64,000 bases of DNA, taken from Candidatus Tenderia electrophaga. GTDB lineage: Bacteria; Pseudomonadota; Gammaproteobacteria; Tenderiales; Tenderiaceae. The position numbers and the translations under genes were made by a program. The notes under the pieces are model-generated. The model searched no databases and was not told the DNA's origin. It saw only the letters and a program-made list of their open reading frames with translations. Shown one piece after another: positions 6,290 to 46,393 of the stretch (position 1 is its first letter; each line of letters starts with the position of its first letter). The stretch lies in the NCBI GenBank assembly GCA_001447805.1, contig CP013099.1, positions 1,922,001-1,986,000 on the forward strand, in the 5' to 3' direction.

Positions 6290-6347
6290 CGCCCCGATGA
6301 TGAAAACGTTCTAATGTTGAACAACTTATGACCGTGCGGAAATCTAG

Positions 6348-20963: not shown

Positions 20964-21044
20964 AGCCCCATCCCCGTGCCCCCTCCATAATCATGTGCTG
21001 TTGTTTGTTGAACGCTACATGTCAGGTTGGAAAGGAGGGGACTC

Positions 21045-25504: not shown

Positions 25505-26692
25505 ATGATTAACGGTCTTCTCGATTTGTCCATCTGGGAAATGGTCGGCGCCACGCTGATCCTCACCCATCTGACAATCATCAGCGTCACGGTATTCCTG
25601 CATCGTCACCAGGCGCACCGCGCGCTGGAACTGCATCCGCTCCCAAGCCACCTGTTTCGCTTTTGGCTGTGGCTGAGCACCGGCATGCGGACCAAAGAAT
25701 GGGTGGCGATCCACCGCAAGCACCACGTCAAATGCGAAACCGAGGAGGATCCCCACAGTCCCCAGGTGCTGGGAATTAAAAAGGTTTTATGGCAGGGGGC
25801 CGAGCTGTATCGCGAAGCAGCCGAGGTGACTGAGACCCTGGATAAATACGGCAAAGGTACACCTGATGACTGGCTGGAACGAAATGTCTATCGCCACAGC
25901 TTTGCCGGCATCGGCCTGATGCTGCTGGCCGATGTACTTATGTTCGGTGTGGCCGGGGTCACCGTCTGGGCCGTGCAGATGCTCTGGATTCCCTTCTGGG
26001 CCGCCGGGGTGATCAACGGGATCGGCCATTACTGGGGCTATCGCAATTACGAATGTCCCGATGCCGCCACCAATATCGTGCCCTGGGGCATACTCATCGG
26101 CGGCGAAGAGCTGCACAATAATCATCACACCTATCCCAACTCGGCGCGGCTGTCCTCCAAGCGCTGGGAATTCGATATCGGTTGGCTCTACATCCGCGTG
26201 TTGGAAATGCTGGGCCTGGCACGGGTGAAAAAGGTGGCGCGCCTGCCCCAGCTGGGTCAGCCCAAGTCTGCCTTGGATATGGATTCGGTACGTGCCGTGT
26301 TGTCCAATCGCTTTCAGGTAATGGCGCGCTATTCCCGCGATGTGATCGTGCCGGTCTGCCGTATGGAGGCACAGCGTTCATGCGCCAACTCCCGCGCTTG
26401 CGCGTGGCTGAAACGCGCGCGCAAAGCCCTGGTGCGCAATGAAGCGCTACTGGATTCGCGCGACCGGCAGGCCTTGTCCCAGGCGCTTGAGAACAGCGAA
26501 CAGCTGCAAGTGGTGTACAGCTTCAAACAGCGTCTTCAGAAGATCTGGGAACGCTCCGGCACGCACTCGGCGACCCCTTTGGCGGATTTGCAGGAGTGGT
26601 GCCGGCAGGCAGAGGCCACCGGTGTCGCCATGCTGGGAGAGTTCGCCGGTCGGCTGCACCGCTACACCCTGGAGAACGCCGCTGCACGCTAG
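25505..26692 (+). CDS. Acyl-CoA/acyl-lipid fatty acid desaturase
   Basis: 395 residues with two pairs of hydrophobic segments. It has the three histidine boxes of a membrane di-iron desaturase: HRHQAHRAL, HRKHH, and HNNHH (ELHNNHHTYPNSARLSSK). These match the delta-9 type acyl-CoA desaturase group. It should introduce a cis double bond into membrane fatty acids. The C-terminal ~120 residues extend beyond the usual domain and look helical and basic. The gene is monocistronic; a 60-base-period direct repeat lies in its upstream region. Confidence 0.9.
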   Translation: MINGLLDLSIWEMVGATLILTHLTIISVTVFLHRHQAHRALELHPLPSHLFRFWLWLSTGMRTKEWVAIHRKHHVKCETEEDPHSPQVLGIKKVLWQGAELYREAAEVTETLDKYGKGTPDDWLERNVYRHSFAGIGLMLLADVLMFGVAGVTVWAVQMLWIPFWAAGVINGIGHYWGYRNYECPDAATNIVPWGILIGGEELHNNHHTYPNSARLSSKRWEFDIGWLYIRVLEMLGLARVKKVARLPQLGQPKSALDMDSVRAVLSNRFQVMARYSRDVIVPVCRMEAQRSCANSRACAWLKRARKALVRNEALLDSRDRQALSQALENSEQLQVVYSFKQRLQKIWERSGTHSATPLADLQEWCRQAEATGVAMLGEFAGRLHRYTLENAAAR

Positions 26693-27633: not shown

Positions 27634-29133
27634 TTAGTCCACCTCGAGTTTGTTGACTACGCGCACCGCGCCGCCCTCTAAGGCATTTTCTGTGGCGGCA
27701 TCGAATTCGCGCCAGCTCTCCACTTGGCCTTTCAGGGTTACGATTCCCGCATCCACTTGCACCTTGACATCGTCGGCGTCGACGAAGGGGCTCCAGAACA
27801 GCTCGTCATTGATATCCGCTCTGATCTCATGGTCGCGTTTACGTGGCGTGATTCTATCCACCGCGTACCAGGGAGAATTATAGATCTCCCAATCATCGAC
27901 GTAGGGGTTGTAGACCATGGGTTGCGGCGTACCGATCTCGATATCGTTCTGCACATGGATTACACCGGCGACGCGCGCGGCCACGTCTTCGGCGCTGGCC
28001 TTCTTGAACACGGTGTCCACCCGGCCGTCGAGATGCGCAGTACCGTCGATCACCCGCACCTCGATCTGGTCGGTTTCAATATGTGCCTGGCCCGCCAGAG
28101 CAGCGCGGATTTCGGCGGCGATCAGCGCATCGCTGCGTGGCTGCTCGGTGCGTACCTTGATCAGATTGCTCACCCCAATGACACCGACGGTGTTGCGGGC
28201 ATCGCGTTCGGCCACCTGTTTCGCCTTAAGGTTGGAGACCTTGCCCTGCAGGGTGACGAAGCCGTCGCGCACGTTGACGTTAATATCATCCACCGCCACC
28301 CGCGGGTCATAGCGCAGTGCATCGCGGACGGCCGCTTTCACCTCGACGTCGGGCTTGTCGCTGTACTTGTCCTTGCGCAAATTCGGGTCGCGCGCCCATT
28401 CGGCAACCTTGATGGCCTCGCTGTCGACGCTGCGCACGCCACTGACCCAGGCATCTAGACTGGCCTGGCGCTTTTCCGCCGCGCTGCCCACCGTGCCACT
28501 CAGCTTGACCTTGGCATCCTCGACCTCGACATTGATCATGGCACTGTCGACCAGCACATTCCAACGCAGCGCCGCCTCAATGTCTTGCTCTATTTCGCGG
28601 TCGGCACGCTGTTCCATCTTGGCTACCTTGATGTTGTTCTGCAGTTCCTTGACGCCGGCCACGCCCTTGGCCACCTTGGCTGCCAGCGCGCGTTCCTGCC
28701 AGGATTCCGTCTGGCCTTCCAGCACCACCTTGCCCTCGCTGGGCACGCGGGCGGTCACTTCGAAGGATTCGGTGGCGGCATCGGCAAATAAGGCCGCTTG
28801 CACGGACTGGCGCAGTTGCCACGGCATGTGGTCCATCACGGGCACCACATCGATTCGGTTATTGACAGCGCGTACGCCCTTGACAGTTTCGGCGATGCGC
28901 GCGGCGCGCTCTTTGGAAAGCAGGTCGTTCACCGTACCGGTCAGGGTGACGATACCGTTTTTGCTGTCGATATCGATATTCTGTTCCGGTACCGCCTGAT
29001 CGAAACGCAGCTCCCGTTCGATACTCATTATCATCTCAGTGGCCGGGATCTCCTGCGCCAGCAGCGCGCTCGACGACAGGGCGGTAAGTGCAATGAAGAC
29101 ACTCGCCGTTAACATTCCAGATGTCCTAAACAT
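27634..29133 (-). CDS. Periplasmic protein with six BON domains
   Basis: 499 residues with a signal peptide (ending LSSSALLAQ). About six consecutive BON domains follow, each ~65-70 residues and each with a motif such as GIVTLTGTVNDLLSKERAA, VVLEGQTESWQERALA, FVTLQGKVSNLKAKQVAE or IVTLKGQVESWREFDAA. BON domains bind phospholipid surfaces; OsmY, with two, is a stress-induced periplasmic chaperone-like protein. Six in one chain is long for the family. AAGGAG precedes the ATG. It is divergent from the Mqo-like gene with 227 bases between them. Confidence 0.88.
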   Translation of the reverse strand: MFRTSGMLTASVFIALTALSSSALLAQEIPATEMIMSIERELRFDQAVPEQNIDIDSKNGIVTLTGTVNDLLSKERAARIAETVKGVRAVNNRIDVVPVMDHMPWQLRQSVQAALFADAATESFEVTARVPSEGKVVLEGQTESWQERALAAKVAKGVAGVKELQNNIKVAKMEQRADREIEQDIEAALRWNVLVDSAMINVEVEDAKVKLSGTVGSAAEKRQASLDAWVSGVRSVDSEAIKVAEWARDPNLRKDKYSDKPDVEVKAAVRDALRYDPRVAVDDINVNVRDGFVTLQGKVSNLKAKQVAERDARNTVGVIGVSNLIKVRTEQPRSDALIAAEIRAALAGQAHIETDQIEVRVIDGTAHLDGRVDTVFKKASAEDVAARVAGVIHVQNDIEIGTPQPMVYNPYVDDWEIYNSPWYAVDRITPRKRDHEIRADINDELFWSPFVDADDVKVQVDAGIVTLKGQVESWREFDAATENALEGGAVRVVNKLEVD

Positions 29134-31884: not shown

Positions 31885-32223
31885 ATGAAAATACGTTATC
31901 TAGCCTTGGCCGCAGCTTTATCGTTGGGTGCCGCTTCCAGCGCATGGGCACAGAGCACTTGGACCAGCACCAACACCAATAACACCACCAACACCAACAA
32001 CAATGTCACCAATGCCCAGAGCTTCGGGACAAATTCGTTTTCATTCTCGTCAGGGAATATGAATATTTCTCAGAGCGGTGCCACCGGCGCCGATTCCAGT
32101 GGCTTTTGTCAGTTCTTCAGTTTTTCCTTTGGCATGATGCAGATCGTCCAAATCATCCAGGGCAATTCCTTTAGCCAGGTATTTGGGTCCGCCTCTGACC
32201 CGGTGGAAGACCCCTGCCTGTAG
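31885..32223 (+). CDS. Small secreted Asn/Thr/Ser-rich protein
   Basis: 112 residues with a clear signal peptide (ALAAALSLGAASSAWA). The mature protein opens with a low-complexity stretch of Thr, Asn and Ser (TNTNNTTNTNNNVTN). Phe/Ser-rich segments follow (SFSFSSGN; FSFSFGMMQIVQIIQ) and then two Cys near the ends. The Asn/Gln/Ser-rich, repeat-like composition recalls secreted surface or curlin-like proteins, but there is no convincing curlin repeat. GGGAG precedes the ATG. A strong terminator follows. Confidence 0.75.
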   Translation: MKIRYLALAAALSLGAASSAWAQSTWTSTNTNNTTNTNNNVTNAQSFGTNSFSFSSGNMNISQSGATGADSSGFCQFFSFSFGMMQIVQIIQGNSFSQVFGSASDPVEDPCL

Positions 32224-33317: not shown

Positions 33318-36194
33318 ATGATAATCAGAAGCGTTAGCCGTCTGCTACTGGGCCTGCTCGTTGTCTTGAGCGGCTGTTCCACCAGCCCCAAAGAAGAACT
33401 CCTCGCCTGTGTCAGTGTGGCGCGCGACGGTTTTCGTCCGGTCGCCGAAACACGTGACCTTCGCTTCGAAGGTAAGGTGCAAGAAGACACCGCCCGTTGT
33501 CGCGGCGGTGAAAAGGCAGTGGCTTATCGCGATACCCCGTGGGTGGATTGGCAACATTACTGGGCGGCGGGGGATGCCTCCACACTGTCGCAAATCACTC
33601 ACGGCGGTCGTCACTTGGGACCCAACGGGCGCGGGATCGACGGCGCCTTGCTGGACCTGGAATACCAGCGCGTCGAACTCATTAAGTTCAATCTGTTCGA
33701 CAACAGCGGCACCTACGCCGACTATGTGCGCGGCCGCGACGGGGTGCACGGCGCTGCCTTGAAGGTCTGGCCGCAAATGCGACTGGCCGTGGATGATCCT
33801 TATTACGCCGCGGTGGGCGGCGAAGGCACGCAGCTATGTGAAGGCGAGTTGATCCGTTTCCGCACCCTCACCGGTATTTGCAACGATATTAAAAATCCCC
33901 TGATGGGATCATCCGGCACCCTGTTCGCGCGCAATGTCGAGTTCGAAACTGCATTTCCGGATCTGGGTAAAACCGAACTGGTGCGCAACCGCCACGGCGA
34001 TCGCCTCGGCCTGTTCAAGCCCGACCCACAGGTCATCAGCCGTAAACTATTCACGCGCGCGCAAAGCAAGCCGGATAAATGCCATGACGGCATGGGACTG
34101 GCGGACCACGATCCCACGGCCCACTGCGATTATCAGAAGGCGCCTTTCTTCAACGTATTGGCGGCCTTTTGGATACAGTTCATGACCCATGACTGGTTTT
34201 CCCATCTGCATGAAGGGCGCAACGCGGACGCCATGATGGCGGTCGGCTGCACCACGCAGCGTGTCGCTAACGAGGAGCGGGCGCTCACGCCACAGCAGAT
34301 CGCCGAACTCGGCTGTCGCCCCGGCGACCGCATGGATAAAGGCATGATCGCCCAAACTGACGAACCGCCGACATTCACTGCCCACGGCAAGACCTACCTC
34401 GGTCGCGCCCACCAGACCACGGCCAACAATGTGACCGCCTGGTGGGACGCCTCCCAGCTGTATGGCTACAACGAGATTTCTCGCCAACGCGTCAAACGCG
34501 ACCCGAGCGATCCCGCCAAATTACGGGTCCGTTCGGTCGGCGCGCGCGCCGGCGCCGGTGAACAACAGGGTTACCTGCCACTGTTTGCCGCCGCCGACCC
34601 CATCCATCCCCAGTGGACAGGGCAGGAGGCCACCGCCTTCCCCGACAACTGGAGCATCGGACTGAGCTTTTATCACAACCTGTTTGCCCGCGAGCACAAT
34701 TTGTTCGTCGATGCCTTCCGGCGGCAGGCGGCGCAAACGCCCCAGGCCGATTCCGGCCTGCGCAACCCGGCGCGCCCCGATGCAGTCATTGCTTATCAGG
34801 ACGTGAGCGACGATGAATTATTCGAAGTGGCGCGTCTGGTGGTGGCTGCCGAGATCGCCAAGATCCACACCATCGAATGGACCCCCCAACTGCTCTACGA
34901 CGAACCCTTGTACAAGGGCATGAATGCCAACTGGAACGGTCTGTTTGAGAACAGCAAGCTGGTTGGGGCGGCGCTGGAAAAGGTGGTGGTGAACAGCTTC
35001 GGCAAGGCCGACGACGCCAAAAAGGCCAATCAATGGTATTCCGTGTTCGCCTCCGGCCCGGGCATAATCGGCTTGGGCAGTCACGTATATCAAGACGACG
35101 CCATCTTGTCTGGTTATGATCCGGACAAGACCGACCTGTGGCGTCTGGACAATCCCGACCATGTCAACGGCGGGGTCAACCACTTTGGTTCACCGTTCAA
35201 TTTTCCCGAGGAGTTCGTCACCGTCTATCGCCTCCACCCGCTGGTGCCGGACCTGCTTGAATACCGCGAGTGGAACCGTGACCCGAACAGGATTCAGGCC
35301 AAGGTGCCGGTGGTGGAAACGGTGCGTGGCCAGGCTACCCAGGTCATGGCCGACGGCGGGCTGGCCAACTGGGCGCTGAGTATGGGGCGCCAGCGTCTGG
35401 GGCTGCTCACCCTGAAAAACCATCCGCACTTTTTGCAGAATCTGCACCTGCCGCGCTTGGATTCGGACACCGGCCAAATCGACGTGGCGGCATTGGATAT
35501 TATCCGCGACCGCGAACGCGGCGTGCCACGCTTTAATGAGTTCCGTCGGCAATACGGCCTGCGCCAGCTGACCAGTTTCGATGATTTTATCGATCCGCGC
35601 CTGCCCATGAATTCGCCCCAGCGTGTCGAGCAGCAACGCCTGGCCACCTTGCTGCGGGACGTCTACGGCCAGCATCGCTGCGACGCCGCCAAGGTAATCA
35701 CCCGCGCCCAGCGCAATCCCGACGGCTCCTTGATTACGGATTGCCTCGGCCATCCGGACGGCAGCGTGGTGGACAATATCGAGGATGTGGATACGGTAGT
35801 GGGCTGGTTGGCCGAGTTTCCCCGGCCGCACGGCTTCGCCATCTCCGAGACCCAATTCCAGGTGTTTATCCTCAACGCCTCGCGGCGCCTGTTCAGCGAT
35901 CGTTTCTTTACCTCCAGTTTCCGACCCGAGTTCTACAGTTATCTCGGTATCGACTGGGTCAATAATAACGGGCCGGACGGCAAGGTGATGGAGCGGGGCA
36001 GACCCAACGGTCACGAGACGGAGGTCTCGCCCCTCAAGCGCGTACTGTTACGCACTACACCCGAGCTGGCGCCGGAGCTGGAATACGTGGTGAATGCCTT
36101 CGACCCATGGGCCCGAGATCGGGGTGCCTATTATTCATTGGCCTGGACACCCAGGCCGGGAGCAGAAAACGATGCCGCCTTCAGTCAGCCTTAA
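33318..36194 (+). CDS. Exported haem peroxidase/dioxygenase, alpha-dioxygenase (alpha-DOX)-like lipoprotein
   Basis: 958 residues. A signal segment ends in the lipobox LSGC, so it should be a lipoprotein. The distal-haem region NVLAAFWIQFMTHDWFSHL (His291) closely resembles fatty acid alpha-dioxygenases. AWWDASQLYGYNE follows. EEFVTVYRLHPLVPDLLEY carries the equivalents of the cyclooxygenase/alpha-DOX catalytic Tyr (Tyr637) and proximal His (His640). Retention of the radical Tyr argues for oxygenation of a fatty acyl substrate rather than simple peroxidase work; that is inference. GGGAGAG precedes the ATG at 33318. It overlaps the P450 gene by 23 bases and leads a seven-gene operon. Cytoplasmic homologues are the rule, so export is notable. 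Confidence 0.85.
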   Translation: MIIRSVSRLLLGLLVVLSGCSTSPKEELLACVSVARDGFRPVAETRDLRFEGKVQEDTARCRGGEKAVAYRDTPWVDWQHYWAAGDASTLSQITHGGRHLGPNGRGIDGALLDLEYQRVELIKFNLFDNSGTYADYVRGRDGVHGAALKVWPQMRLAVDDPYYAAVGGEGTQLCEGELIRFRTLTGICNDIKNPLMGSSGTLFARNVEFETAFPDLGKTELVRNRHGDRLGLFKPDPQVISRKLFTRAQSKPDKCHDGMGLADHDPTAHCDYQKAPFFNVLAAFWIQFMTHDWFSHLHEGRNADAMMAVGCTTQRVANEERALTPQQIAELGCRPGDRMDKGMIAQTDEPPTFTAHGKTYLGRAHQTTANNVTAWWDASQLYGYNEISRQRVKRDPSDPAKLRVRSVGARAGAGEQQGYLPLFAAADPIHPQWTGQEATAFPDNWSIGLSFYHNLFAREHNLFVDAFRRQAAQTPQADSGLRNPARPDAVIAYQDVSDDELFEVARLVVAAEIAKIHTIEWTPQLLYDEPLYKGMNANWNGLFENSKLVGAALEKVVVNSFGKADDAKKANQWYSVFASGPGIIGLGSHVYQDDAILSGYDPDKTDLWRLDNPDHVNGGVNHFGSPFNFPEEFVTVYRLHPLVPDLLEYREWNRDPNRIQAKVPVVETVRGQATQVMADGGLANWALSMGRQRLGLLTLKNHPHFLQNLHLPRLDSDTGQIDVAALDIIRDRERGVPRFNEFRRQYGLRQLTSFDDFIDPRLPMNSPQRVEQQRLATLLRDVYGQHRCDAAKVITRAQRNPDGSLITDCLGHPDGSVVDNIEDVDTVVGWLAEFPRPHGFAISETQFQVFILNASRRLFSDRFFTSSFRPEFYSYLGIDWVNNNGPDGKVMERGRPNGHETEVSPLKRVLLRTTPELAPELEYVVNAFDPWARDRGAYYSLAWTPRPGAENDAAFSQP

Positions 36195-37521
36195 ACACTC
36201 CATGGCCGCCACGGCGGTCATACCGACCGTGTCCCTGTGGCACAGCGTGGTCTATAACGTGATGCATGTGTTGCCCGCGTATAGCCGGGGTTTGTTCACG
36301 CCCAACAAATTCTGGACCGGGTTATGGGATCGCCTGCAACCTGATCCTGCGGCGGTGAAGTTTGTCAGCCGCCTGCGCAAGAAGTATCACAGCGATTATC
36401 TTTATATACATGTGTTGACCAAAAAGTCCTTGCTGGTGCTGGACCCGGACGGTATCAGGCACGTGCTGGACCATTCTCCCGATATCTACGCCGATGCCAA
36501 GTTGAAACGCAAGGGGATGTCGCATTTTCAGCCTGACGCCGTGACTATCTCGCGCGGCGAGGCCTGGCGCGATCGGCGGCGCTTCAACGAAAGCGTGCTG
36601 GATTCCGGCCAGGCCCTGCATCGCCATGCCGATCAATTTCTCGACATCATCAACGGCGAAACCCGGCATGTGTTGCAATCAAAGCAACTGAAATGGTCGG
36701 ATTGGGCCGACCTGTTTGACCAGATCACCCTACAGGTGATCTTCGGTAAGGGCATTCGCGACAATACATCCTTGCAGGCCCTGCGTCAGCTGATGCGCCA
36801 GAGCAATCGTGGCTTTGGATTGGATAAATCCAGTCAGTTCGACGCCTTTTATGACAATATCCAGCGCCGCCGTGAAAGCGCGCCCGATACCTCCTTGGCA
36901 GGCCTGTGCAAGCACGCCCCGGTGACTGAGGTCACTAAACCGGATAATCAGATCCCACACTGGATGTTCGCCATGGCCGATACCCTGGCGATCAATACCG
37001 CCCGTGCCCTGGCCTTGATTACGAGCCATAGCGAAGCCGAGCAGGCGGTGCGGGAGGAAATGGCCGCTACGCGGCTAAACACCGCGGCGGCTGTCCGCAG
37101 TCTGACCTATCTGCGGGGCTGTGTGCAGGAGGCCATGCGTTTGTGGCCCACCACGCCCACCTTGGTGCGCGAAACCTTACAAGACGACCGACTCGGCGGT
37201 GCGCCGGTGGCCAAAGGCACACAGGTGCTCATACTCAACAGCTTCAATCACCGCGACCGGGAACAACTGGATTTCGCCGACCGCTTTGAACCGCAACGCT
37301 GGCAGCAGGGCGACAGTATAAATTATCGTTTCAATCATCTCAGTAACGGAGCTCAGGTATGTGCCGGCAAGGAATTGGCCCTGTTTATGGCCACCGCCGT
37401 GTTGGCCAAGTTGCTGGCCACGCATCGTTTTGCGCTGCAACGGCCGATGCTGGATCGGCGTAAACCGCTGCCTTACCTGTATAACCATTTCAAGCTGAGT
37501 TTTTCTATCAGGCCTATATAG
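36172..37521 (+). CDS. Cytochrome P450 with atypical haem-binding loop
   Basis: 449 residues. The K-helix ExxR is present (QEAMRLWPTTPTLVRET), with a PERF-like DRFEPQRW. The haem ligand is Cys397 in LSNGAQVCAGKELAL; compared with FxxGxRxCxG, the Phe is Leu and the Arg is Gln. The I-helix reads FAMADTLAINTARA, keeping an acid-Thr pair but not the usual Gly. P450s beside COX/alpha-DOX-type enzymes in fungi and plants rearrange hydroperoxides without external reductant, and the altered loop fits such a role; this is inference. No ferredoxin partner is adjacent. Its start lies inside the dioxygenase gene; ATG 36202 is an alternative. Confidence 0.87.
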   Translation: MPPSVSLKHSMAATAVIPTVSLWHSVVYNVMHVLPAYSRGLFTPNKFWTGLWDRLQPDPAAVKFVSRLRKKYHSDYLYIHVLTKKSLLVLDPDGIRHVLDHSPDIYADAKLKRKGMSHFQPDAVTISRGEAWRDRRRFNESVLDSGQALHRHADQFLDIINGETRHVLQSKQLKWSDWADLFDQITLQVIFGKGIRDNTSLQALRQLMRQSNRGFGLDKSSQFDAFYDNIQRRRESAPDTSLAGLCKHAPVTEVTKPDNQIPHWMFAMADTLAINTARALALITSHSEAEQAVREEMAATRLNTAAAVRSLTYLRGCVQEAMRLWPTTPTLVRETLQDDRLGGAPVAKGTQVLILNSFNHRDREQLDFADRFEPQRWQQGDSINYRFNHLSNGAQVCAGKELALFMATAVLAKLLATHRFALQRPMLDRRKPLPYLYNHFKLSFSIRPI

Positions 37522-37565
37522 CCGTGAAAACAAACGCGTGGCGAATTAAACCGGGAGGTAACAGG

Positions 37566-38021
37566 GTGCATCCAAGCGTGGCCAAATTCCTGGAGATGTC
37601 GCAGGCGGAACTGGACGAGATTTACAAGGGCGCCATTGCCGGTGTGGTGCCCGACGGTAATACCCGCGGCACCGCCATTGTCGGCGGCAGCTTGCTCGCT
37701 AAACTCTACGCCCGTGTTGCCAACCTGTTTTTTTGGCAAGGCAAGGTGTTCGATATTTTCTGTCCGCCGGATCAGGGTATCCTAATTAATAAGGTCACGC
37801 CCTTCAGTCTTACGTTCGTCATTGCCAAGGTATATAAGCAGGCCAGTTGGCTGGATGGCGCCGAGACCATTGTCATCGATTATTCCACCACCTCGTTCTT
37901 CGCCAAAAAGGTGCGCGACGAAATCCGCCAGGTTGAGCCCGGCGTCTATTTGGGCAAGGTGTGGTGGGGTAAAAAGCGCATCCTGGATTTCGCCCTGGAA
38001 GTGATCGCAGAACGGCCGTGA
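37566..38021 (+). CDS. Conserved accessory protein of the haem-dioxygenase operon
   Basis: 151 residues from GTG 37566, chosen for GGGAGGT 6 bases upstream; GTG 37524 is an alternative. Recognisable blocks are GVVPDGNTRGTAIVGGSLLA, FFWQGKVFD, ASWLDGAETIVIDYSTTS and RDEIRQVEPGVYLGKVWWG. I recall this GTA / WxGKxF / DGxxxIVIDYS / RDEIRxVxPGxYLG pattern from small proteins found beside or fused to oxidative enzymes. I know of no assigned function. There is no signal peptide. It may be a lipocalin-like ligand carrier, but that is a guess. It overlaps the next gene by four bases. Confidence 0.8.
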   Translation: MHPSVAKFLEMSQAELDEIYKGAIAGVVPDGNTRGTAIVGGSLLAKLYARVANLFFWQGKVFDIFCPPDQGILINKVTPFSLTFVIAKVYKQASWLDGAETIVIDYSTTSFFAKKVRDEIRQVEPGVYLGKVWWGKKRILDFALEVIAERP

Positions 38022-39514
38022 CGATGAAGCCGGCCAGACTGGATAAGGCGCGACGCTGGTTATATCTCCTGTTGGTGCTGCCTACACTGTTGATGTTGGT
38101 GTTCGCACTCTATCTCTGGGGCCGATTTGGCGGCGACCGGCCGGTGGAGTACGCCGATCCGGCGGAGCACTTCAAATACGGCTCCACCGGCGGCGAGCGT
38201 GAATCGGGCTTTCCGTATTGGGTCTTTCAGGCCTTGCCCCATGTCTGTGCCCAGCACCTGCCCGGCGCCGGTTATGCATCCTTGGGCATGATCTTCGAAG
38301 CGGGCAAGCGTCTGCCGGTAGGTATGTCCATGCGCCATCACCTGGGCTTGGAACGGGTGTTCCTGAACTGCGCCGTCTGCCACACCAGCACAGTGCGCGA
38401 CACGCCGGCCTCAGAAGCCAGGCTCTATCTGGCCATGCCCGCCAATCGTTTCAATGTCATGGCCTTCGAAGACTTCTTTTTTAACTGTGCCAAGGATGAA
38501 AAATTCAGCAAGGCGCATATTATTCCCCAGGTGCGGCATTTGCTGCAGCAGCAGGGTGAAGACCTCGATTTGCTGGAACGCTATGTGGTGTATCCCTTGG
38601 CGGTCTGGATTATGCGCGAACGCCTGCTGATGCTGGCCGGCCGGTTTGAATGGGCACAGCACCAGCATGACTGGGGACCGGGGCGGGTCGACACCTTCAA
38701 TGTGGCCAAGGTGCTGTTTAACTTTCCCATGGAGCAACTGGCCGAGCACGAGCAGAACGCCCCGGCGGATTTTCCCTCGATATGGAATCAGGCGCCGCGC
38801 CAGGGTATGCAACTGCATTGGGACGGTAACAACACGCTGCTGGCGGAGCGCGACAAGAGCGCCGCCTTCGGCACCGGTACCACGCCGCCCACCCTGGATG
38901 TGGACGCCGTCGGGCGGGTGGAGCAATGGCTGATGCAAAAACAGGCGCCGCCCTATCCGTACGCCATCGATCAGGCCGCGGCCGAACACGGCGCCGCGAT
39001 CTATCAAGAATATTGTGCTGATTGCCACGGCGCCGGCCCCCGTGATTTCAGCGGTGCGTATGTGGGCAAGGTCACGCCTATCGAGGCAATCGGCACCGAC
39101 CGTCACCGACTCGACAGCTACAGCTATGCGCTGGCCGTCAATCAGGCCACCCTGTACGCCGGCTATCCCTGGCGCTTCAGCCATTTCCGCAAGACCTTCG
39201 GTTACGCCAACATGCCGCTGGACGGCATCTGGCTGCGCGCGCCGTATTTGCACAACGGTTCGGTGCCGAGCTTGCGTGATCTATTGGAACCGGCGGCGCA
39301 GCGCCCGGCGGTATTTTATCGCGGTTACGACGTCTACGATCAGACGCGGGTGGGGTTTGTGAACGATGTGGCCAGTGAAAACGGCATGTCGTACTTTCGC
39401 TATGACACCGCCGTACCCGGCAACTCCAATCACGGTCACGAAGGCCCGGCCTATGGCACCAATCTGGCGGCGCAAGACAAACAGGCCTTGGTGGAATATC
39501 TCAAGACGTTTTAG
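38018..39514 (+). CDS. Membrane-anchored di-haem c-type cytochrome 1
   Basis: 498 residues. One N-terminal membrane helix (YLLLVLPTLLMLVFALYLWG) leads to a periplasmic region with two haem-binding sites, CAVCH at 118 and CADCH at 333. The segment APYLHNGSVPSLRDLLEP near the C-terminus recalls the cytochrome c peroxidase/RoxA (rubber dioxygenase) superfamily, which also carries two c-haems. It may be an electron-transfer partner or itself an oxygenase. The GTG start overlaps the previous stop (GTGA); ATG 38024 is also possible. It is clearly a paralogue of the next gene. Confidence 0.85.
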   Translation: MTMKPARLDKARRWLYLLLVLPTLLMLVFALYLWGRFGGDRPVEYADPAEHFKYGSTGGERESGFPYWVFQALPHVCAQHLPGAGYASLGMIFEAGKRLPVGMSMRHHLGLERVFLNCAVCHTSTVRDTPASEARLYLAMPANRFNVMAFEDFFFNCAKDEKFSKAHIIPQVRHLLQQQGEDLDLLERYVVYPLAVWIMRERLLMLAGRFEWAQHQHDWGPGRVDTFNVAKVLFNFPMEQLAEHEQNAPADFPSIWNQAPRQGMQLHWDGNNTLLAERDKSAAFGTGTTPPTLDVDAVGRVEQWLMQKQAPPYPYAIDQAAAEHGAAIYQEYCADCHGAGPRDFSGAYVGKVTPIEAIGTDRHRLDSYSYALAVNQATLYAGYPWRFSHFRKTFGYANMPLDGIWLRAPYLHNGSVPSLRDLLEPAAQRPAVFYRGYDVYDQTRVGFVNDVASENGMSYFRYDTAVPGNSNHGHEGPAYGTNLAAQDKQALVEYLKTF

Positions 39515-39536
39515 TCCAGCCTGAGGGAGAGCGCGG

Positions 39537-41006
39537 ATGGCACGTCCCAAACAGCCGACACAGCATCACAGCAAATTGCTCATCTGGCTCATGGTCTTGG
39601 CCGCCCTGGCGGTGGTCGGCGGGTTGTTTACCTGGTACAAATTCTTCCGCGAACTGCCGCAACCCGAGTGGGTCATGTCCAGTCCGGACATGCGGTTTAA
39701 ATACGGCTCCATCGGCGCCGAACATGATGCCGGCATTCCGTATTGGATCTTCTATGTCATGCCGCGCGTATTCGCCGACAAACTGCCCGGCCCCGGCGGC
39801 TGGGCGTCACTGGGCGTGGCCTGGGAACAGGGCCAGGAGTTGCCGGTGGGTTTTACCAAGAAGGTCATCGGATTTCCCCGCGTCGCCAACAATTGTGCCG
39901 TGTGTCATACGGTGAGTTATCGTACCCGGCTCAATGAAAACCCCCGTTTTGTGACCGCCGGCCCGGCCCATACCGATGTGCAGGGCTATTTCCGCTTTCT
40001 TATCGACGCGGCGCGCGATCCGCGTTTCGAGCCCGATACGCTTATGCACGAGATCGAGTTGGTCACCGATCTAAGCTTTGTCGACAGTATGATTTACCGC
40101 TTTCTGCTCATTCCCATTACCAAGAAACGCCTGCTGGAGCGGGAACACCAGTTCCAGTGGATTTATCGCCCGGACTTTCCCGATTGGGGGCGCGGCCGTG
40201 ATGATGCCATGAACCTGACCAAGTATTTCATGATCGAGTTTCCCATGGACGATACCTTCGGCCCCACCGACATGCCGGCGATCTGGAATCTGAACAAATA
40301 TGACCCGGACAAGGGCCATACCCTGAATTGGGCCGGCGACAGCCACGATGCCCATTCAGTGGTCATCGATTCCGCCCTGGGCGTGCTCGGCGCCGAACCC
40401 CATGATCATGACGACTTTCAGCGCCAAGTCGAGTGGCTGCTGGAGTATCTGGGTAATAAAGCGCCGCCCGAGTTTCCCTTTCCCATCGATAGGCAACTGG
40501 CGGCTCAGGGCGGGGCAGTGTTTGAGCGCAGCTGTGCGCGCTGCCATGACAGCGCCAAGACCGGCACGCGCCTGCCCTTAGAAACGGTTGATACTGATCC
40601 GGGGCGTCTGCAGAGTTGGAGCAAGGAGGCCGCCATCGCTGCGAATAAAGTGGTGCGCGACATGGGCATCAAGCGGCGTGGACTGGTCGAACAGACCCTG
40701 GATGGGTATAACGCAGTGTTTCTCGACGGCATCTGGTTGCGTGCCCCCTATCTGCACAATGGCTCGGTACCGAGCCTGCGCGACCTGCTCAAGCCGGCCG
40801 CCCAGCGTCCCACAGTATTCTGGCGCGGTTACGATCTCTACGATCCGGTCGCTATGGGCTTTGTCAGCCAGGGGGCTGACGCACAGCGTATTGGCACGCG
40901 CTTAGATGTGAACAGCAAGAGTGGCAGCAATCAAGGACATGAATTTGGCACCGATCTGCCTGGCGCGGACAAACAGGCCCTACTAGAGTATTTGAAGACT
41001 TTGTGA
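39537..41006 (+). CDS. Membrane-anchored di-haem c-type cytochrome 2
   Basis: 489 residues with the same plan as its upstream neighbour: one N-terminal helix (LIWLMVLAALAVVGGLFTWY), CAVCH at 120, CARCH at 333, then APYLHNGSVPSLRDLLKPAA and GTDLPGADKQALLEYLKTL. The haem spacing is nearly identical in the two (about 215 residues). Tandem duplication followed by divergence is the simplest origin. Keeping both suggests an obligate pair or relay. 22 bases separate the two genes, with GGGAGAG before this ATG. Confidence 0.85.
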   Translation: MARPKQPTQHHSKLLIWLMVLAALAVVGGLFTWYKFFRELPQPEWVMSSPDMRFKYGSIGAEHDAGIPYWIFYVMPRVFADKLPGPGGWASLGVAWEQGQELPVGFTKKVIGFPRVANNCAVCHTVSYRTRLNENPRFVTAGPAHTDVQGYFRFLIDAARDPRFEPDTLMHEIELVTDLSFVDSMIYRFLLIPITKKRLLEREHQFQWIYRPDFPDWGRGRDDAMNLTKYFMIEFPMDDTFGPTDMPAIWNLNKYDPDKGHTLNWAGDSHDAHSVVIDSALGVLGAEPHDHDDFQRQVEWLLEYLGNKAPPEFPFPIDRQLAAQGGAVFERSCARCHDSAKTGTRLPLETVDTDPGRLQSWSKEAAIAANKVVRDMGIKRRGLVEQTLDGYNAVFLDGIWLRAPYLHNGSVPSLRDLLKPAAQRPTVFWRGYDLYDPVAMGFVSQGADAQRIGTRLDVNSKSGSNQGHEFGTDLPGADKQALLEYLKTL

Positions 41007-41040
41007 AGGAAAATGTCATATGTCTGGATTGGAGTGAGGG

Positions 41041-41535
41041 GTGAGCGATGTCGGCGTAATCAAAACCTTCGCCCAGGTGGCGGGACTGGGGGGACTCGCC
41101 CTGGTGCTGGTATTGTTCGTGTTTCGCGATGTGATTCGCAAAGACATCTTCGCCCGACTCACCAAGCGGCAGTCTTATCAGCTGTTTCGGCTGATCATCA
41201 TCGTCACGTCGCTGTTATCGGTAACGGGCATGGGCGCGTGGGTGTATGTATCGCAGGACCCCCCCAAACCCACCAGTAGCCGGGTGGTTATCAGCGGCAG
41301 CGTCAGCGGACCCAACGGCGAGCCGCTGCGCGGCGTGATTATTACTGCAGATCATTATCCCTTTCGCGCTGTCAGCAACACCGACGGCAGTTTTGCCGAA
41401 AGCCTACTGCTGCCGCAACGCAACGAACCGGTGACCTTGAGGGCCTATCATGAGGGGTATCTAACCAGTGAGACCTCAATCACCGTCGCGCAGGAGAACC
41501 CACAGGTGGATATTGTCATGAAGGAACGCCCATGA
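41041..41535 (+). CDS. Membrane protein with carboxypeptidase-regulatory-like domain
   Basis: 164 residues. Two membrane helices (GLGGLALVLVLFVFRDVI; LFRLIIIVTSLLSVTGMGAW) are followed by a periplasmic beta-sandwich typical of carboxypeptidase-regulatory-like domains: VVISGSVSGPNGEPLRGVII and FRAVSNTDGSFAESLLLP. Such domains mediate binding or stabilise envelope complexes. The start is GTG, with GGAGTGAG upstream, 34 bases after the second cytochrome. It overlaps the barrel gene by four bases (ATGA), so inner- and outer-membrane parts are made together. Confidence 0.78.
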   Translation: MSDVGVIKTFAQVAGLGGLALVLVLFVFRDVIRKDIFARLTKRQSYQLFRLIIIVTSLLSVTGMGAWVYVSQDPPKPTSSRVVISGSVSGPNGEPLRGVIITADHYPFRAVSNTDGSFAESLLLPQRNEPVTLRAYHEGYLTSETSITVAQENPQVDIVMKERP

Positions 41536-42992
41536 AACTCACGCGCTGCCGCATGGAATGCCTGGCCTTATGGCTGTTGCTTGCCCTGATGGTATGCAGC
41601 CACGCATCGGCCCGTGAAATCAGACTGCAAGGCACGGTCACCTGCAAGGAACAAGGCGATGTAGGCGCACGCCCGGCGCAGGCGGTATTGGTGGTGCCGC
41701 GCCAGTTCGTGAGCCAGGCTCGCTTGTCGGATGACCAAGGTCTGTATGTGTTCGATCTGCCCGCGGCCAGGATAATCGACCAAGCCACCACGCTCCACTT
41801 TCGCAATGCAGGGCAGGAGATCGGCCAGCGCACGGAGCAGATTTGGGAGTCCGAGTTGCGGCGCTTTCAAGATCGTTATGTCTATTTCCCCGACACGGCC
41901 GAAGTCGAGGTGCCATGCAAGGTGGCCGAGGATACGCCGCAAGTTATGCAGCAACAATTGGCGCTGTTTTCCCAGCAAACGGAACAGGCGCGTGTGCTGC
42001 TCGATTCCAGTGCCGCGGCCGGCGGCGCCACCGTACTAGCTTCACTGCCCAGCGTCGCCGGGGCCGCGGCGGGTGGCCCGGCCCTGCCGGGCGGTGTGTT
42101 CAGCGTGGTCGGGCTGTCGCCGTCCGACGCGGTGGCGGGGCGACTGTCCAGTATCGCCCTGAGCGCCAAAACGACCGCCCCCGGATTCGCCTTTGCGCCG
42201 ACGCGCAACATCACCGATGCGAGCTTTTGGAATGCCGCCGCCCTGGCGCTGTCCTTGCGTCGCGGCGTGAATGTGGCCAGTGATTTCGATGAATTTTCCC
42301 GTCTCAGCCTGGCGGCCGGCGTGGGGGATCGCTACGGCCTTGGTATCGGTGTGATCAAGCTCAAGCAGGAAGATCGGCGCACCGCCACCCTGGATATAGG
42401 CACCCCCCATACCCGCTCATTTAGGTTTAGTGAAACGGGCGTGTATTTGTCGGGCGCCGCACGGCTCAACCGCGATGCCGATCGGCCCTTGGCCATCGGG
42501 ATAACACTCAAGCATATGAGCCAGGAGCTGGATTTGGCCCGGCTCGGTGACCAAGTCACCAATCTGGGGCCGGACGACCCCACATGGGACTACAACAGTG
42601 TCTACGTATCAAAGAACGATATGGATGTTTCGCTCAATTACCGCGTCAATCAACACGCCAACATCGGCCTGGCGCTGATGAGTCTGTTGAACCGGAAACT
42701 AACAGACGGGGACGGCAACGAGCGCGACCAACGCGCTGTCGGACTCGGAATCAGCATTATGCAGGGGCGTACTCACTACGGCGTCGACCTCATTCATCGC
42801 GAGGTGGAGGGTAGCGATATCGCCCTCGGTGTCAATACCGTCCCCTTTGCCCATGGCCACATCAGCGCGGGTTACGACAGCACCTACAATAACTATAGTG
42901 TCGGTTTCGGTTATTACTGGTTTCGGTATAGCTATAGCGATGATGATCTGTTTAACAGCACCCATATGGTTGGCGTGGAGTACATATTCTGA
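41532..42992 (+). CDS. Outer-membrane beta-barrel protein with N-terminal regulatory-like domain
   Basis: 486 residues with a signal peptide (WLLLALMVCSHASA). Residues ~30-130 resemble another carboxypeptidase-regulatory-like sandwich with one disulfide-capable Cys pair. The last ~270 residues alternate polar and hydrophobic residues in amphipathic strands and end in Phe (MVGVEYIF), the outer-membrane insertion signal. It resembles conjugal-transfer TraF-like/FadL-like barrels only in general form. As the last gene of the operon it could import the lipid substrate or export the product; this is inference from position. Confidence 0.75.
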   Translation: MKLTRCRMECLALWLLLALMVCSHASAREIRLQGTVTCKEQGDVGARPAQAVLVVPRQFVSQARLSDDQGLYVFDLPAARIIDQATTLHFRNAGQEIGQRTEQIWESELRRFQDRYVYFPDTAEVEVPCKVAEDTPQVMQQQLALFSQQTEQARVLLDSSAAAGGATVLASLPSVAGAAAGGPALPGGVFSVVGLSPSDAVAGRLSSIALSAKTTAPGFAFAPTRNITDASFWNAAALALSLRRGVNVASDFDEFSRLSLAAGVGDRYGLGIGVIKLKQEDRRTATLDIGTPHTRSFRFSETGVYLSGAARLNRDADRPLAIGITLKHMSQELDLARLGDQVTNLGPDDPTWDYNSVYVSKNDMDVSLNYRVNQHANIGLALMSLLNRKLTDGDGNERDQRAVGLGISIMQGRTHYGVDLIHREVEGSDIALGVNTVPFAHGHISAGYDSTYNNYSVGFGYYWFRYSYSDDDLFNSTHMVGVEYIF

Positions 42993-43282
42993 TGCAAGAG
43001 GCGCGCAAAGAGTCGTGATTTAGCGACATTGTTTTTTTACATGCCGCCCTTGAATTGTGATTGAGCCTGGCTATAGTTAGCCCATTGGGCGGTAGACCTG
43101 TCGATTTGCACGTGGCTTTGCCAAGGGATGCATCGAGTCACTTAATTGGGTTCATATCGATACCGCCATTTGCCCTGATTATTCTAATAAGCCGGTCGCG
43201 ATACCGGCTGGTCCGGCGATCCGGCCACATGAACCGTCCGCTATGTTTGCCCACGCGTTTTCTCCAGGGAAAGGAGCACGAA

Positions 43283-46200
43283 ATGAGTGAAGCATTCAGA
43301 ACATCACCACGCGCTTTTCACATCATTCAATACGCCCTTGTCGCCATAGCGGCGGCAGGGTTGCTGGCCGGTTGTTTCCACGGCGGCGATGCGCCCGCTG
43401 TGGCGCAGAGCGATCAGGACCAGATCCAACCCACGGCGCAGACGGGCGTCGTCAGGAGTGTGATTCTGATCGATGCCGTGGCCCTGGCGCAGATCGGGGA
43501 GGATCTGGGTGCAGTGCGCGTGGATGTCACCAGAGGGGCGTCTCTGGTGGACAGCAAAACCATTGCGCTGGAATCCAGCGCCGAGGGCGGTGTGCGCGGC
43601 GACGCCTTTTTTGCCCTCAATCCCGGCGATTACAACGTATTGGCGACCTTGTTGAGTACCGAGGGGGGCGCCTTGCAGGGCTGTAGTCCGGGCAACGGAT
43701 TCGCATCGGTGCAAGCGAATCAAACCACCGAAATCAATGTCAATATTTTCTGCAACGGCGGTGAGACCGGCGGCTTGGATGTCATCGTCGGTGTGTCGCA
43801 GCGCCCCGTGATTGACGACTTGTTGATACGTCCCAGCAAATTCGCCCTGACCTGTAATCGCATCGGGCTACAGGTGGTCGTTGCCGGCGACGGCAGTGAT
43901 TTGACATACGACTGGTCGATTCAAAATGGCGACAGCGCGAATTTCTTCATCAACGCCACCGGCGCACGCGCCTATTTCGCCGCCGAGGCGGCCATGAGCT
44001 ATAGCGCCATGTTGAGTATCAGTGACAGCACCGGCGAGTCGACGTCTTTGTCGTTTCCCTTGCATATCAGCGCCGGGGACATTAGCGCGTGTTTGCAGCA
44101 GGACAGCGATGACGACACCATTCCCAACGTGGTCGACAATTGTCCGTCCACACCCAATCCCGGACAAGAGGACGCCGACAACGACGGCATCGGCGACGCC
44201 TGCGCCAATGCCGCCGACCTGGTCATCACGCGTGGCGGTATGACACCGCATCCCGGTGTTGCGGGTGAATCCCTGAGCCTGCACGCCGTGGTCATGAATC
44301 GCGGCGGCGCGGCATCGCCGCCCACCACGCTGCGCGGTTGTGCGCGCCGCGACAATACCTTTTGCAGTGCCGACAGCGCCGTGCCGGGACTGGCACCGGG
44401 CGAACAGACGACGGTGAATGCCACCGTGGCCGGCGACGCCACGTTAACGCGCGACAGCGATCAGCCCTACTATTTCGTCGCCACCGTGGACCCGGGCGGC
44501 AATGTACCCGAATCCATGGAAGACAATAACGACGCCGTGCTCAACCCGCTGTTCGTGGTCGTGCCTTTTATACCTGACCCGTTGGTGGCGGAGGATCATG
44601 ACGACATATTCGTCTTCCAAGACGCCAGGATCATCGCCACCGAGCGTGTCAGCTACCCCAACGGGGCCCCCGGCGACCGATCGGCGCCTGATCCCGAGGA
44701 GAAGGCAGGCGTGGAGGAAGACCCGCCCAGCGGCGCGCTGGCAGCCAAGGTCGATCCCTTGTTACGTGAGGAGATGGCCAACCTATCGGGCAGCGACATG
44801 ATACAGGCGGTATTGCTGTTGGAAGATCGTTTTCCCATGCGGCCCTTGCCTGAGTTGATCCGCGGCCTGTCGCGTTATTCCGAACGTAACCTGCCCTTGT
44901 TCGCGCGGCGCCAGGCGGCCTTCGAAGGACTCAGGCGGGCGCGCTTAAACGCCCAGGTGGAACTGCTCACCAATCTGGTCGGGCGTACCCAGCCGCAGCC
45001 GGGCGGTTCGAATGTTCCCCTCGGCGGCATCCGCTTGCAGGAATTTTTAAATCTGTCGGGCGCGCTGGTGGTCGAGCTGTCGGTGGACATGGTCAATGTC
45101 CTGGCCGATTTTGATGAGGTGCTGCATATCAACTCGGTCAATCAAAGCGGCGAATATTTGGACGACGGCATTACCACCAACGATATTATCGATGCGCGTC
45201 AACAGCTGCGTACCGATCCTTACTTCAATGCCGGGGCCGAGGGCGGCGGCTTTTATTTCGGTGTCATCGATAGCGGCGCGCGCATCAGCCACACCAATTT
45301 CAACAGTCCCGATCAGATTGACTTCTGGCGCGATTGCTTTCACACCACCAGCGTCACCTGCCAGGATACCGGCGATCCCGGCTGGGCGCCGGGTGACGGC
45401 GTCAATCACGGCACCAAGGTAATGGGCATCATTAACAGCAACAGCAATCTGGGCGGCAACTGGCGCGGCGTGGCCGACACCACTGCCGACTCGTGGGACG
45501 TTACCGACGACGGCGGTGCCGCCCCCAGTTGTCTGGCGGTACAGCGCGCACTCAATGCGGCGGCCCTGGTATCGGACAAGGTGGTGACCGCCTCGCTTTC
45601 CTGTGGCTCCGATTTCACCGATGCCACCGCGCAGGCCGCCGACGCCGCCTATGATGCAGGTATGTTGGTGTTTTTCGCCAACGGCAATGGCGGACCGGGC
45701 AGCGGCACAGTGAGTGCCCCGGGCGGCGCGCACAAGGTCATCGGCGTCGGCGCCTTCGATGTCTCCAGCGGCAATCAATATGCGGGTCAGTCGCGCGGCC
45801 CCACCAGCGACGGGCGCATCAAGCCTGATTTGCAGATGCCCACCAACACCGAGTCCACCTCCAATGCCGGCAATACGTCCCAGGGCACGATCTGTTGTAC
45901 CAGCGGCGCCACGCCCTATGCCTCGTCAACGGCCTTGCTGCTGACCGATTGGTTCGGCAATTTTCTCACCGCGCCGGGCAAGATCTACGCCATGCTGTTG
46001 AACTATGGCGAGAACCGTTTTGGCCAGATCGACAACACCGAAGGGGTGGGACCGGTGGAATTGGGCACCGGTGGGGTGCATTGGTCCGGTGCCCGTACCC
46101 TGAACGCATCGGGCCAGAACAGCTATGTCAACTTCACCGTGCCCGCCGGCACCGAGGATCTGCGCGCCGCCATCTGGTGGCCGGAGGGCGCGGCCGAGGC

Positions 46201-46393
46201 GCACGACGATATCGACCTGCGAGTGGAGCATCCACCCGGCACGCCGGTGCAGTCGAGCATTTCCATCAATTCGGTGTTTGAGCATGTGATCGTGTCAAAC
46301 CCGGCGGCGGGAGATTGGCGTATCCGCATTCGCGGCTTCGATGTGGACAGCGGGCCGCAGACAGTGTACTACGCCATTCGGCGCGGACCCTGA
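43283..46393 (+). CDS. S8 (subtilisin-like) serine protease lipoprotein with CARDB and type-3 repeats
   Basis: 1036 residues. The lipobox LLAGC implies a lipid anchor. Residues ~270-310 hold calcium-binding thrombospondin type-3 repeats (DSDDDTIPNVVDNCPSTPNP; EDADNDGIGDACA). A CARDB-like domain follows (ADLVITRGGMTPHPGVAGES), then the S8 catalytic domain with Asp663 (GVIDSGAR), His709 (NHGTKVMGI) and Ser874 (CTSGATPYASS). The C-terminal ~120 residues form a proprotein-convertase-like P-domain (LRAAIWWPEGAAEAHDDIDL). The triad is intact. AAGGAG precedes ATG 43283. The 290 bases upstream contain only a small GCCGGT/ACCGGC stem. Confidence 0.88.
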   Translation: MSEAFRTSPRAFHIIQYALVAIAAAGLLAGCFHGGDAPAVAQSDQDQIQPTAQTGVVRSVILIDAVALAQIGEDLGAVRVDVTRGASLVDSKTIALESSAEGGVRGDAFFALNPGDYNVLATLLSTEGGALQGCSPGNGFASVQANQTTEINVNIFCNGGETGGLDVIVGVSQRPVIDDLLIRPSKFALTCNRIGLQVVVAGDGSDLTYDWSIQNGDSANFFINATGARAYFAAEAAMSYSAMLSISDSTGESTSLSFPLHISAGDISACLQQDSDDDTIPNVVDNCPSTPNPGQEDADNDGIGDACANAADLVITRGGMTPHPGVAGESLSLHAVVMNRGGAASPPTTLRGCARRDNTFCSADSAVPGLAPGEQTTVNATVAGDATLTRDSDQPYYFVATVDPGGNVPESMEDNNDAVLNPLFVVVPFIPDPLVAEDHDDIFVFQDARIIATERVSYPNGAPGDRSAPDPEEKAGVEEDPPSGALAAKVDPLLREEMANLSGSDMIQAVLLLEDRFPMRPLPELIRGLSRYSERNLPLFARRQAAFEGLRRARLNAQVELLTNLVGRTQPQPGGSNVPLGGIRLQEFLNLSGALVVELSVDMVNVLADFDEVLHINSVNQSGEYLDDGITTNDIIDARQQLRTDPYFNAGAEGGGFYFGVIDSGARISHTNFNSPDQIDFWRDCFHTTSVTCQDTGDPGWAPGDGVNHGTKVMGIINSNSNLGGNWRGVADTTADSWDVTDDGGAAPSCLAVQRALNAAALVSDKVVTASLSCGSDFTDATAQAADAAYDAGMLVFFANGNGGPGSGTVSAPGGAHKVIGVGAFDVSSGNQYAGQSRGPTSDGRIKPDLQMPTNTESTSNAGNTSQGTICCTSGATPYASSTALLLTDWFGNFLTAPGKIYAMLLNYGENRFGQIDNTEGVGPVELGTGGVHWSGARTLNASGQNSYVNFTVPAGTEDLRAAIWWPEGAAEAHDDIDLRVEHPPGTPVQSSISINSVFEHVIVSNPAAGDWRIRIRGFDVDSGPQTVYYAIRRGP

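Follow-up and report, generated by a model that had tools for sequence, protein, structure and literature searches.

An alpha-dioxygenase homologue, a P450 and di-haem cytochromes of Candidatus Tenderia electrophaga: probably a rare form of a conserved lipid-oxidation cluster

Gene content and layout

We analyzed a window of 64,000 nucleotides from Candidatus Tenderia electrophaga (GenBank assembly GCA_001447805.1, contig CP013099.1, positions 1,922,001 to 1,986,000 of the forward strand). It contains a block of seven plus-strand genes (Table 1) encoding a fatty-acid alpha-dioxygenase homologue (DOX), a cytochrome P450 (P450), a small accessory protein (ACC), two di-haem cytochromes (CYT1 and CYT2) and a putative envelope pair (TTR and OMP). 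An initial annotation, made from the DNA alone, had treated the block as one transcript-like unit for an envelope lipid-oxidizing or oxylipin-producing pathway, and the junctions that it gave (-23, +44, -4, +22, +34 and -4 bases) were reproduced from the gene coordinates. The first junction hinges on the start of P450, being -23 with the start at 36172 and +7 with that at 36202. The former has a good Shine-Dalgarno sequence (GGAG) about 9 bases upstream, and the latter is the position aligned with the start of the sole close homologue, in a locus designated L034. ACC starts with a GTG at 37566, with the Shine-Dalgarno sequence GGGAGG in front of it. Promoter- and terminator-like sites within the block did not exceed those of shuffled sequence (16 terminators vs. 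13.8 expected), and the sole well-placed terminator-like hairpin lies after the last gene. Past this hairpin, at 43050, is a promoter-like site that would serve the subtilase gene further downstream. The family assignments of the products were confirmed, with matches to An_peroxidase, P450, di-haem cytochromes, a carboxypeptidase-regulatory domain and a PorP/SprF-like barrel; ACC fell in no family.

Table 1. Features of the seven-gene block (positions in the window).
Feature	Position	Strand	Description
DOX	33318-36194	+	958 aa, fatty-acid alpha-dioxygenase homologue, lipoprotein-type signal
P450	36172-37521 (open reading frame open from 36094; alternative start 36202)	+	Pfam p450
ACC	37566-38021	+	151 aa, unnamed family, predicted calycin-like beta-barrel
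CYT1	38018-39514	+	membrane-anchored di-haem cytochrome, RoxA-like cyt c
CYT2	39537-41006	+	CYT1 paralogue, di-haem
TTR	41041-41535	+	inner-membrane protein, carboxypeptidase-regulatory (transthyretin-like) domain, PF13620 1e-8
OMP	41532-42992	+	PorP/SprF-like outer-membrane barrel, PF11751 27.9 bits vs. curated cut-off 22.3
Hairpin	43012-43037	+	weak terminator-like hairpin and T-run 3' of last gene

The first gene encodes an exported alpha-dioxygenase homologue

DOX matched Pfam An_peroxidase (E 1e-68), and its best PDB sequences were the plant alpha-dioxygenases (alpha-DOX) of rice and Arabidopsis (4kvj/4hhr; E 6e-56 to 3e-51), with other peroxidases far behind (best E 4e-6). A structure model built from 38 relatives was of moderate confidence (predicted local distance difference test, pLDDT, 68; predicted template modelling score, pTM, 0.76), and the top four of 50 fold matches to it were plant alpha-DOX (Z 20.6-21.2 over 542-559 residues). 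The alpha-DOX residues of a published list in rice numbering (PMC8720084) that could be mapped, namely H157, H311, W315, T316, F375, Y379, H382, F549, F552, A556 and R559, are all found in DOX and are kept in 52-53 of the 53 family members scored. The same 52-53 of 53 applies to the catalytic Tyr379 (motif YRLH) with its flanking and stacking residues Phe375 and Phe552. Both haem histidines (distal His157 and proximal His382) are kept in 53/53, as is each residue of the carboxylate site (His311, Thr316 and Arg559), whose role in carboxylate binding by alpha-DOX has been described (PMC8720084). A lipoprotein-type signal (LVVLSGC) is recognizable in the N-terminus, MIIRSVSRLLLGLLVVLSGC, and a hydrophobic N-terminus was present in 37/53 relatives. 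Sequence, predicted fold and the residues of the active site all mark DOX as an exported homologue of the alpha-DOX-type fatty-acid dioxygenases, which bears out its first description as a haem protein of the fatty-acid-dioxygenase type.

Oxygenation at a carbon other than C2, giving a 10S- or 8-hydroperoxide as in the Nostoc or fungal enzymes, seems improbable. The 10S-DOX of Nostoc is a known bacterial DOX with a catalase-related partner (PMC13049297), and DOX exceeds the plant alpha-DOX in length by about 340 aa, both of which would suit such a reading. Against it stand the invariant carboxylate site and the best matches to alpha-DOX. In addition, the residue two positions after the catalytic Tyr (Y+2) is Met in alpha-DOX and Trp or Phe in cyclooxygenases (COX) and fungal DOX, while 10S-DOX has its distal His replaced (PMC13049297). 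DOX carries Leu at Y+2 and keeps the distal His, so that neither the YxW signature of the fungal and COX enzymes nor the replacement typical of 10S-DOX was seen in it.

DOX and ACC belong to a conserved gene cluster

No match to ACC was found in Pfam, NCBIfam, PHROGs or the PDB sequences and, because no known family matched it, ACC was chosen as search marker. A single scan across 84,980 species genomes yielded 266 relatives, and the neighborhoods of the best 80 were read. A DOX gene lay within 10 kb of ACC in 62 of these 80 loci. Since the long DOX occurs in about 2/369 sampled genomes of the class, and ACC in 3/299 sampled genomes of the phylum, this gene order is far beyond chance, and the question of whether the genes co-occur elsewhere, raised with the initial annotation, can be answered positively. 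Both DOX and ACC were absent from the same-genus and same-family genomes, so no close synteny was available for comparison. No DOX or P450 was found among the open reading frames listed within about 4 kb of the ACC homologue of Nocardia farcinica.

As a rule, the order in relatives was DOX-CAT1-ACC, where CAT1 is a catalase-related haem protein of about 345 aa; in 50 of the best 80 loci, a long DOX and CAT1 lay directly upstream of ACC, in the same orientation and no more than 2.5 kb away. Downstream of ACC, most loci encode an unnamed 434-aa membrane protein, a DyP-like peroxidase and a second catalase-like protein, CAT2 (e.g., 4521-8689 of locus L024). Neighbors in particular relatives include a Tle1-type phospholipase and, in Nitrosomonas europaea, a lipoxygenase gene adjoining the long DOX (197-1894 of its locus, L069; PF00305, 9e-58), with a large di-haem protein and a GMC oxidoreductase between DOX and ACC. 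This nitrifier thus has two types of fatty-acid dioxygenase side by side. In Roseobacter cerasinus, a molybdenum aldehyde oxidase and a DOX lie downstream of ACC, and such an oxidase would suit the Cn-1 aldehyde formed by alpha-oxidation. The cluster, with its O2-dependent DOX, was also observed in Desulfobacterota of sulfate- or sulfur-metabolizing groups (L066, L077, L079 and L108), including at least one named strain, Desulfopila sp. IMCC35006.

TTR, OMP and the downstream subtilase were found in 0 of the best 80 ACC loci, and OMP also in none of 55 relatives. TTR and OMP therefore lie in the transcript-like block yet are not core to the system, and the proposal that this envelope pair (41041-42992) forms part of it was not upheld. 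Taken as a whole, the operon in the window is probably a rare version of a lipid-oxidation cluster that is widespread, conserved and, it seems, undescribed.

P450 occupies the place of a catalase-related protein

The best PDB match of the CAT1 profile was the coral allene oxide synthase (AOS) 1u5u (E 4e-8), with catalases next. The proximal RxxxY and the distal Asn were invariant in the 45 CAT1 sequences scored, and the distal His of catalases was replaced by Gln in 45/45, so CAT1 is not an ordinary catalase. The catalase-related AOS and hydroperoxide lyases (HPL) are recognized by a distal Thr-His, the Asn and the proximal RxxxY, and CAT1 departs from this set by the same Gln. In two loci, the window and L034 (a 12.5-kb contig of a Desulfuromonadales metagenome-assembled genome, MAG), the CAT1 slot is filled by P450. 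The order in L034 is DOX-P450-ACC-434-DyP-CAT2, with identities to the window of 69% (DOX), about 55-56% (P450) and 68% (ACC). The P450 clade is almost absent elsewhere: its single occurrences among the 369 genomes of the class and among 147 relatives of the L034 genome were each an already known locus, and no further P450-type loci were found in either sample. A search for CAT1 in the window's own genome returned nothing, a result of limited weight. The pairing of dioxygenase and P450, central to the initial annotation, therefore stands insofar as DOX has a haem enzyme as its partner in a cluster that is conserved, but its DOX-P450-ACC form is rare and CAT1 is the usual partner.

In the DOX tree, the window grouped with a CAT1 carrier, Desulfurivibrio L077 (support 96/96), whereas in the ACC tree the window and L034 were joined (support 93). 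A single DOX-P450 unit inherited by both loci was considered and rejected, as an approximately unbiased (AU) test excluded grouping of their DOX (p 0.004). Because the two DOX are not sisters while their ACCs group, P450 has joined different DOX lineages, probably together with ACC, each time at the place of CAT1. This repeated joining is our main argument, although not proof, that P450 and CAT1 may do related jobs and could be functionally equivalent partners.

P450 matched Pfam p450 (E 8e-33), with the ExxR motif as EAMR at 346 and C423 as Cys ligand. Its Cys loop, LSNGAQVCAG, differs from the consensus FxxGx[R/H]xCxG, which is itself variable within the superfamily, by Leu for Phe and Gln for Arg/His; the Gly, the Cys and the CxG are kept. 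The usual Arg/His at position C-2 is missing also from distant relatives, and the Gln found there in P450 would point away from a standard monooxygenase. In the I-helix (A-M-A-D-T) the Gly is replaced and the A-D-T acid-alcohol pair is retained in the window and L034 proteins, so the loss of this pair seen in CYP74 was not found in either; among distant relatives the motif is variable or lost. Among more distant P450s, one (26%) has an alpha-DOX in its vicinity in Streptomyces, and another two (about 30%) adjoin catalases.

These features bear on the alternative that P450 is a conventional monooxygenase, e.g., a fatty-acid hydroxylase, that belongs to the pathway, draws on redox partners encoded elsewhere and does not act on the hydroperoxide. 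The A-D-T pair in both close P450s, a weak similarity to CYP102 and a location that is cytosolic by sequence, unlike that of DOX, speak for it. Nevertheless, P450 takes the very position of a catalase-related protein, from a family that requires a (hydro)peroxide for its chemistry, it has neither the C-2 Arg/His nor the I-helix Gly, and no ferredoxin or reductase gene is present in the operon. On balance, we consider a conventional monooxygenase rather unlikely.

ACC is predicted to be a small barrel of the lipid-binding type

The AlphaFold 2 (AF2) model of ACC (pLDDT 82, pTM 0.79) consists of an eight-strand beta-barrel with N-terminal helices. Its only strong fold match was 4mve (Tcur_1030), a protein from structural genomics, with a Z of 13.5 vs. 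8.7 for the next, over 131 residues at 20% identity (Foldseek 1e-4). To our knowledge, Tcur_1030 has no known function. Weaker matches were to binders of the bile-acid (BABP), fatty-acid (FABP) and lipocalin types, and the predicted fold suggests that ACC may carry or shield a lipid.

This bears on whether the cluster could instead provide defense against peroxide or organic hydroperoxides, with DOX acting as a peroxidase, the CAT, DyP and di-haem proteins as scavengers, and no dedicated lipid product. Catalase-like, DyP-like and cytochrome c peroxidase-like proteins do occur together in one cluster. Such a role appears quite unlikely, however, given that CAT1 is without the distal His of catalases, that DOX keeps a fatty-acid carboxylate site needless for a scavenger, that lipoxygenase, phospholipase and aldehyde oxidase genes are neighbors in relatives, and that the modeled ACC fold is of a lipid-binding type.

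Tandem di-haem cytochromes

CYT1 and CYT2 are 37% identical, and each has two CXXCH motifs, the MauG-type motif PYLHNGSVP and an N-terminal anchor. Both exceed the curated cut-off (150 bits) of the di-haem cytochrome c peroxidase family NF040606, with 195.0 and 159.4 bits, respectively. The pair occupies the same place as in the window in 6 of the best 80 ACC loci, all from Alteromonadaceae, and alpha-DOX homologues adjoin RoxA-like di-haem cytochromes also in Rhizobium and Qingshengfaniella, so the link between DOX and such cytochromes recurs. Both ACC and the di-haem pair thus belong to DOX clusters in other genera, in line with their inclusion in the system by the initial annotation. Cleavage of polyisoprenoids or other hydrophobic substrates by the pair, with DOX and P450 ancillary, would fit the match of both proteins to RoxA-type cytochromes c and of CYT1 to the RoxA structure 4b2n. 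We regard this as very unlikely: the pair scored 51-85 bits against curated cut-offs of 900-1000 for RoxA, RoxB and RoxC, on which grounds identity as a rubber oxygenase was rejected, and most relatives keep DOX-CAT1-ACC without it.

Other genes of the window

Just 3' of the block lies a gene for a large subtilase (43286-46393, +) that carries CARDB and thrombospondin-3 repeats; in locus L035, too, DOX-ACC is followed by subtilase/trypsin genes. A 395-aa open reading frame 6.6 kb upstream of DOX (25505-26692, +) combines a fatty-acid desaturase domain (residues 11-212) with an ISL3 transposase-like domain (residues 276-388). Further upstream, a 971-aa frame (21027-23942, +) with COX1, FixO and cytochrome c domains holds the CcoN, CcoO and cytochrome c parts of a cbb3 oxidase in a single frame. 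A 499-aa protein with six BON domains (27634-29133, -) and an exported, low-complexity protein of 112 aa, rich in Asn, Thr, Ser and Phe and matching no family (31885-32223, +), were also observed.

Discussion

The operon is likely, though by no means surely, a pathway of fatty-acid alpha-oxidation of the oxylipin type, in which DOX forms a 2-hydroperoxide that is processed by P450 or, in relatives, CAT1. We infer its chemical steps from the observed gene content, order, conservation and residues and from the predicted folds. As an exported lipoprotein, DOX would hold a free fatty acid by the carboxylate and, by means of a tyrosyl radical that the haem generates, add O2 to its C2 position. P450 may then isomerize, cleave or reduce the resulting 2-hydroperoxy fatty acid, which would need no NAD(P)H redox chain, and CAT1 would take this step in most relatives. 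ACC would most likely carry or shield the fatty acid or its hydroperoxide, and CYT1 and CYT2, as periplasm-facing enzymes of the RoxA/MauG type, could have peroxide or the lipid product as substrate, their place being taken in other relatives by the 434-aa protein, the DyP-like peroxidase and the second catalase-like protein. The products would be oxylipins.

Several points weigh against this pathway. It is built on sequences and models, that of DOX being of moderate confidence, and DOX might act on some lipid that is not a free fatty acid. The A-D-T pair of P450 is compatible with an ordinary monooxygenase served by housekeeping redox partners, and P450 is known from two loci only, one of them on the short MAG contig. 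Moreover, P450 has no signal peptide while DOX is exported, which would require entry of the product into the cytoplasm. The envelope location first proposed accordingly holds for DOX but not for the pathway as a whole. A hydrophobic N-terminus is also missing from about 40% of CAT1 proteins, and the location of the partner thus varies within the family.

We know of few cases of bacterial oxylipin biosynthesis, namely the diol synthase of P. aeruginosa, the 10S-DOX and lyase of Nostoc, and some lipoxygenases. In Nostoc punctiforme, a 10S-DOX and a catalase-related hydroperoxide lyase are encoded by separate genes (PMC13049297); as with DOX-CAT1 in the relatives, a bacterial haem dioxygenase of the COX superfamily has a catalase-related partner, but the DOX described here is of the alpha-DOX type and about 960 aa long, and the window has P450 in place of the catalase-related protein, together with ACC and di-haem cytochromes. 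The fungal DOX-CYP fusions (Ppo proteins/linoleate diol synthases; PMC13049297) likewise pair a haem dioxygenase with a P450, whereas the genes in the window are bacterial and separate, the DOX is of the alpha-DOX type and the P450 is of another, unnamed group. The discovery and assay of bacterial alpha-DOX, with CalDOX and LepDOX being cyanobacterial, are described in a paper that nowhere uses the term gene cluster (PMC8720084). DOX shares with these and the rice and Arabidopsis enzymes the fold, the catalytic Tyr, both His and the carboxylate-binding His, Thr and Arg, but it is about 340 residues longer and exported, and the long DOX usually lies in a multi-haem gene cluster. CAT1 resembles the coral AOS/HPL (1u5u; PMC5617202) as its best PDB match and in the proximal Tyr and distal Asn, and differs in the Gln at the distal His and in having a DOX, not a lipoxygenase, as partner. 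Lastly, PA2077 and PA2078 of P. aeruginosa, an oleate 10S-DOX and a diol synthase, are tandem RoxA-like oxylipin enzymes (PMC4496055). Compared by motif and length, CYT1 and CYT2 are a similar tandem of RoxA-like di-haem proteins (two CXXCH and PYxHNGSVP, the motifs of the FadCcp subfamily of PA2077/PA2078), but they are shorter (about 490 vs. 624-634 aa), carry a membrane anchor and occur alongside a haem DOX. No report on the cluster itself (the combination, the long exported DOX, ACC or the P450/CAT1 exchange) was found in the open-access papers searched, subscription journals lying outside the search.

More tentatively, the cluster may represent a widespread, undescribed bacterial oxylipin system of nitrifiers, methanotrophs, Alteromonadaceae, halomonads and sulfate reducers. 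An exported alpha-DOX would hand 2-hydroperoxy fatty acids to interchangeable haem partners, either CAT1 or a P450 free of redox partners; ACC would channel or rearrange the hydroperoxide; and di-haem or DyP enzymes would finish the product, perhaps a signal or a surface lipid. If this is true, a conserved cluster spanning many genera, with a fatty-acid dioxygenase, exchangeable haem partners and a new accessory family, would open what alpha-oxidation does in free-living bacteria to direct testing, and the exchange of P450 for the catalase-related protein would place two unrelated haem proteins in one post beside the same dioxygenase. Such an exchange would parallel the convergence of CYP74 and catalase-related AOS in plants and corals.

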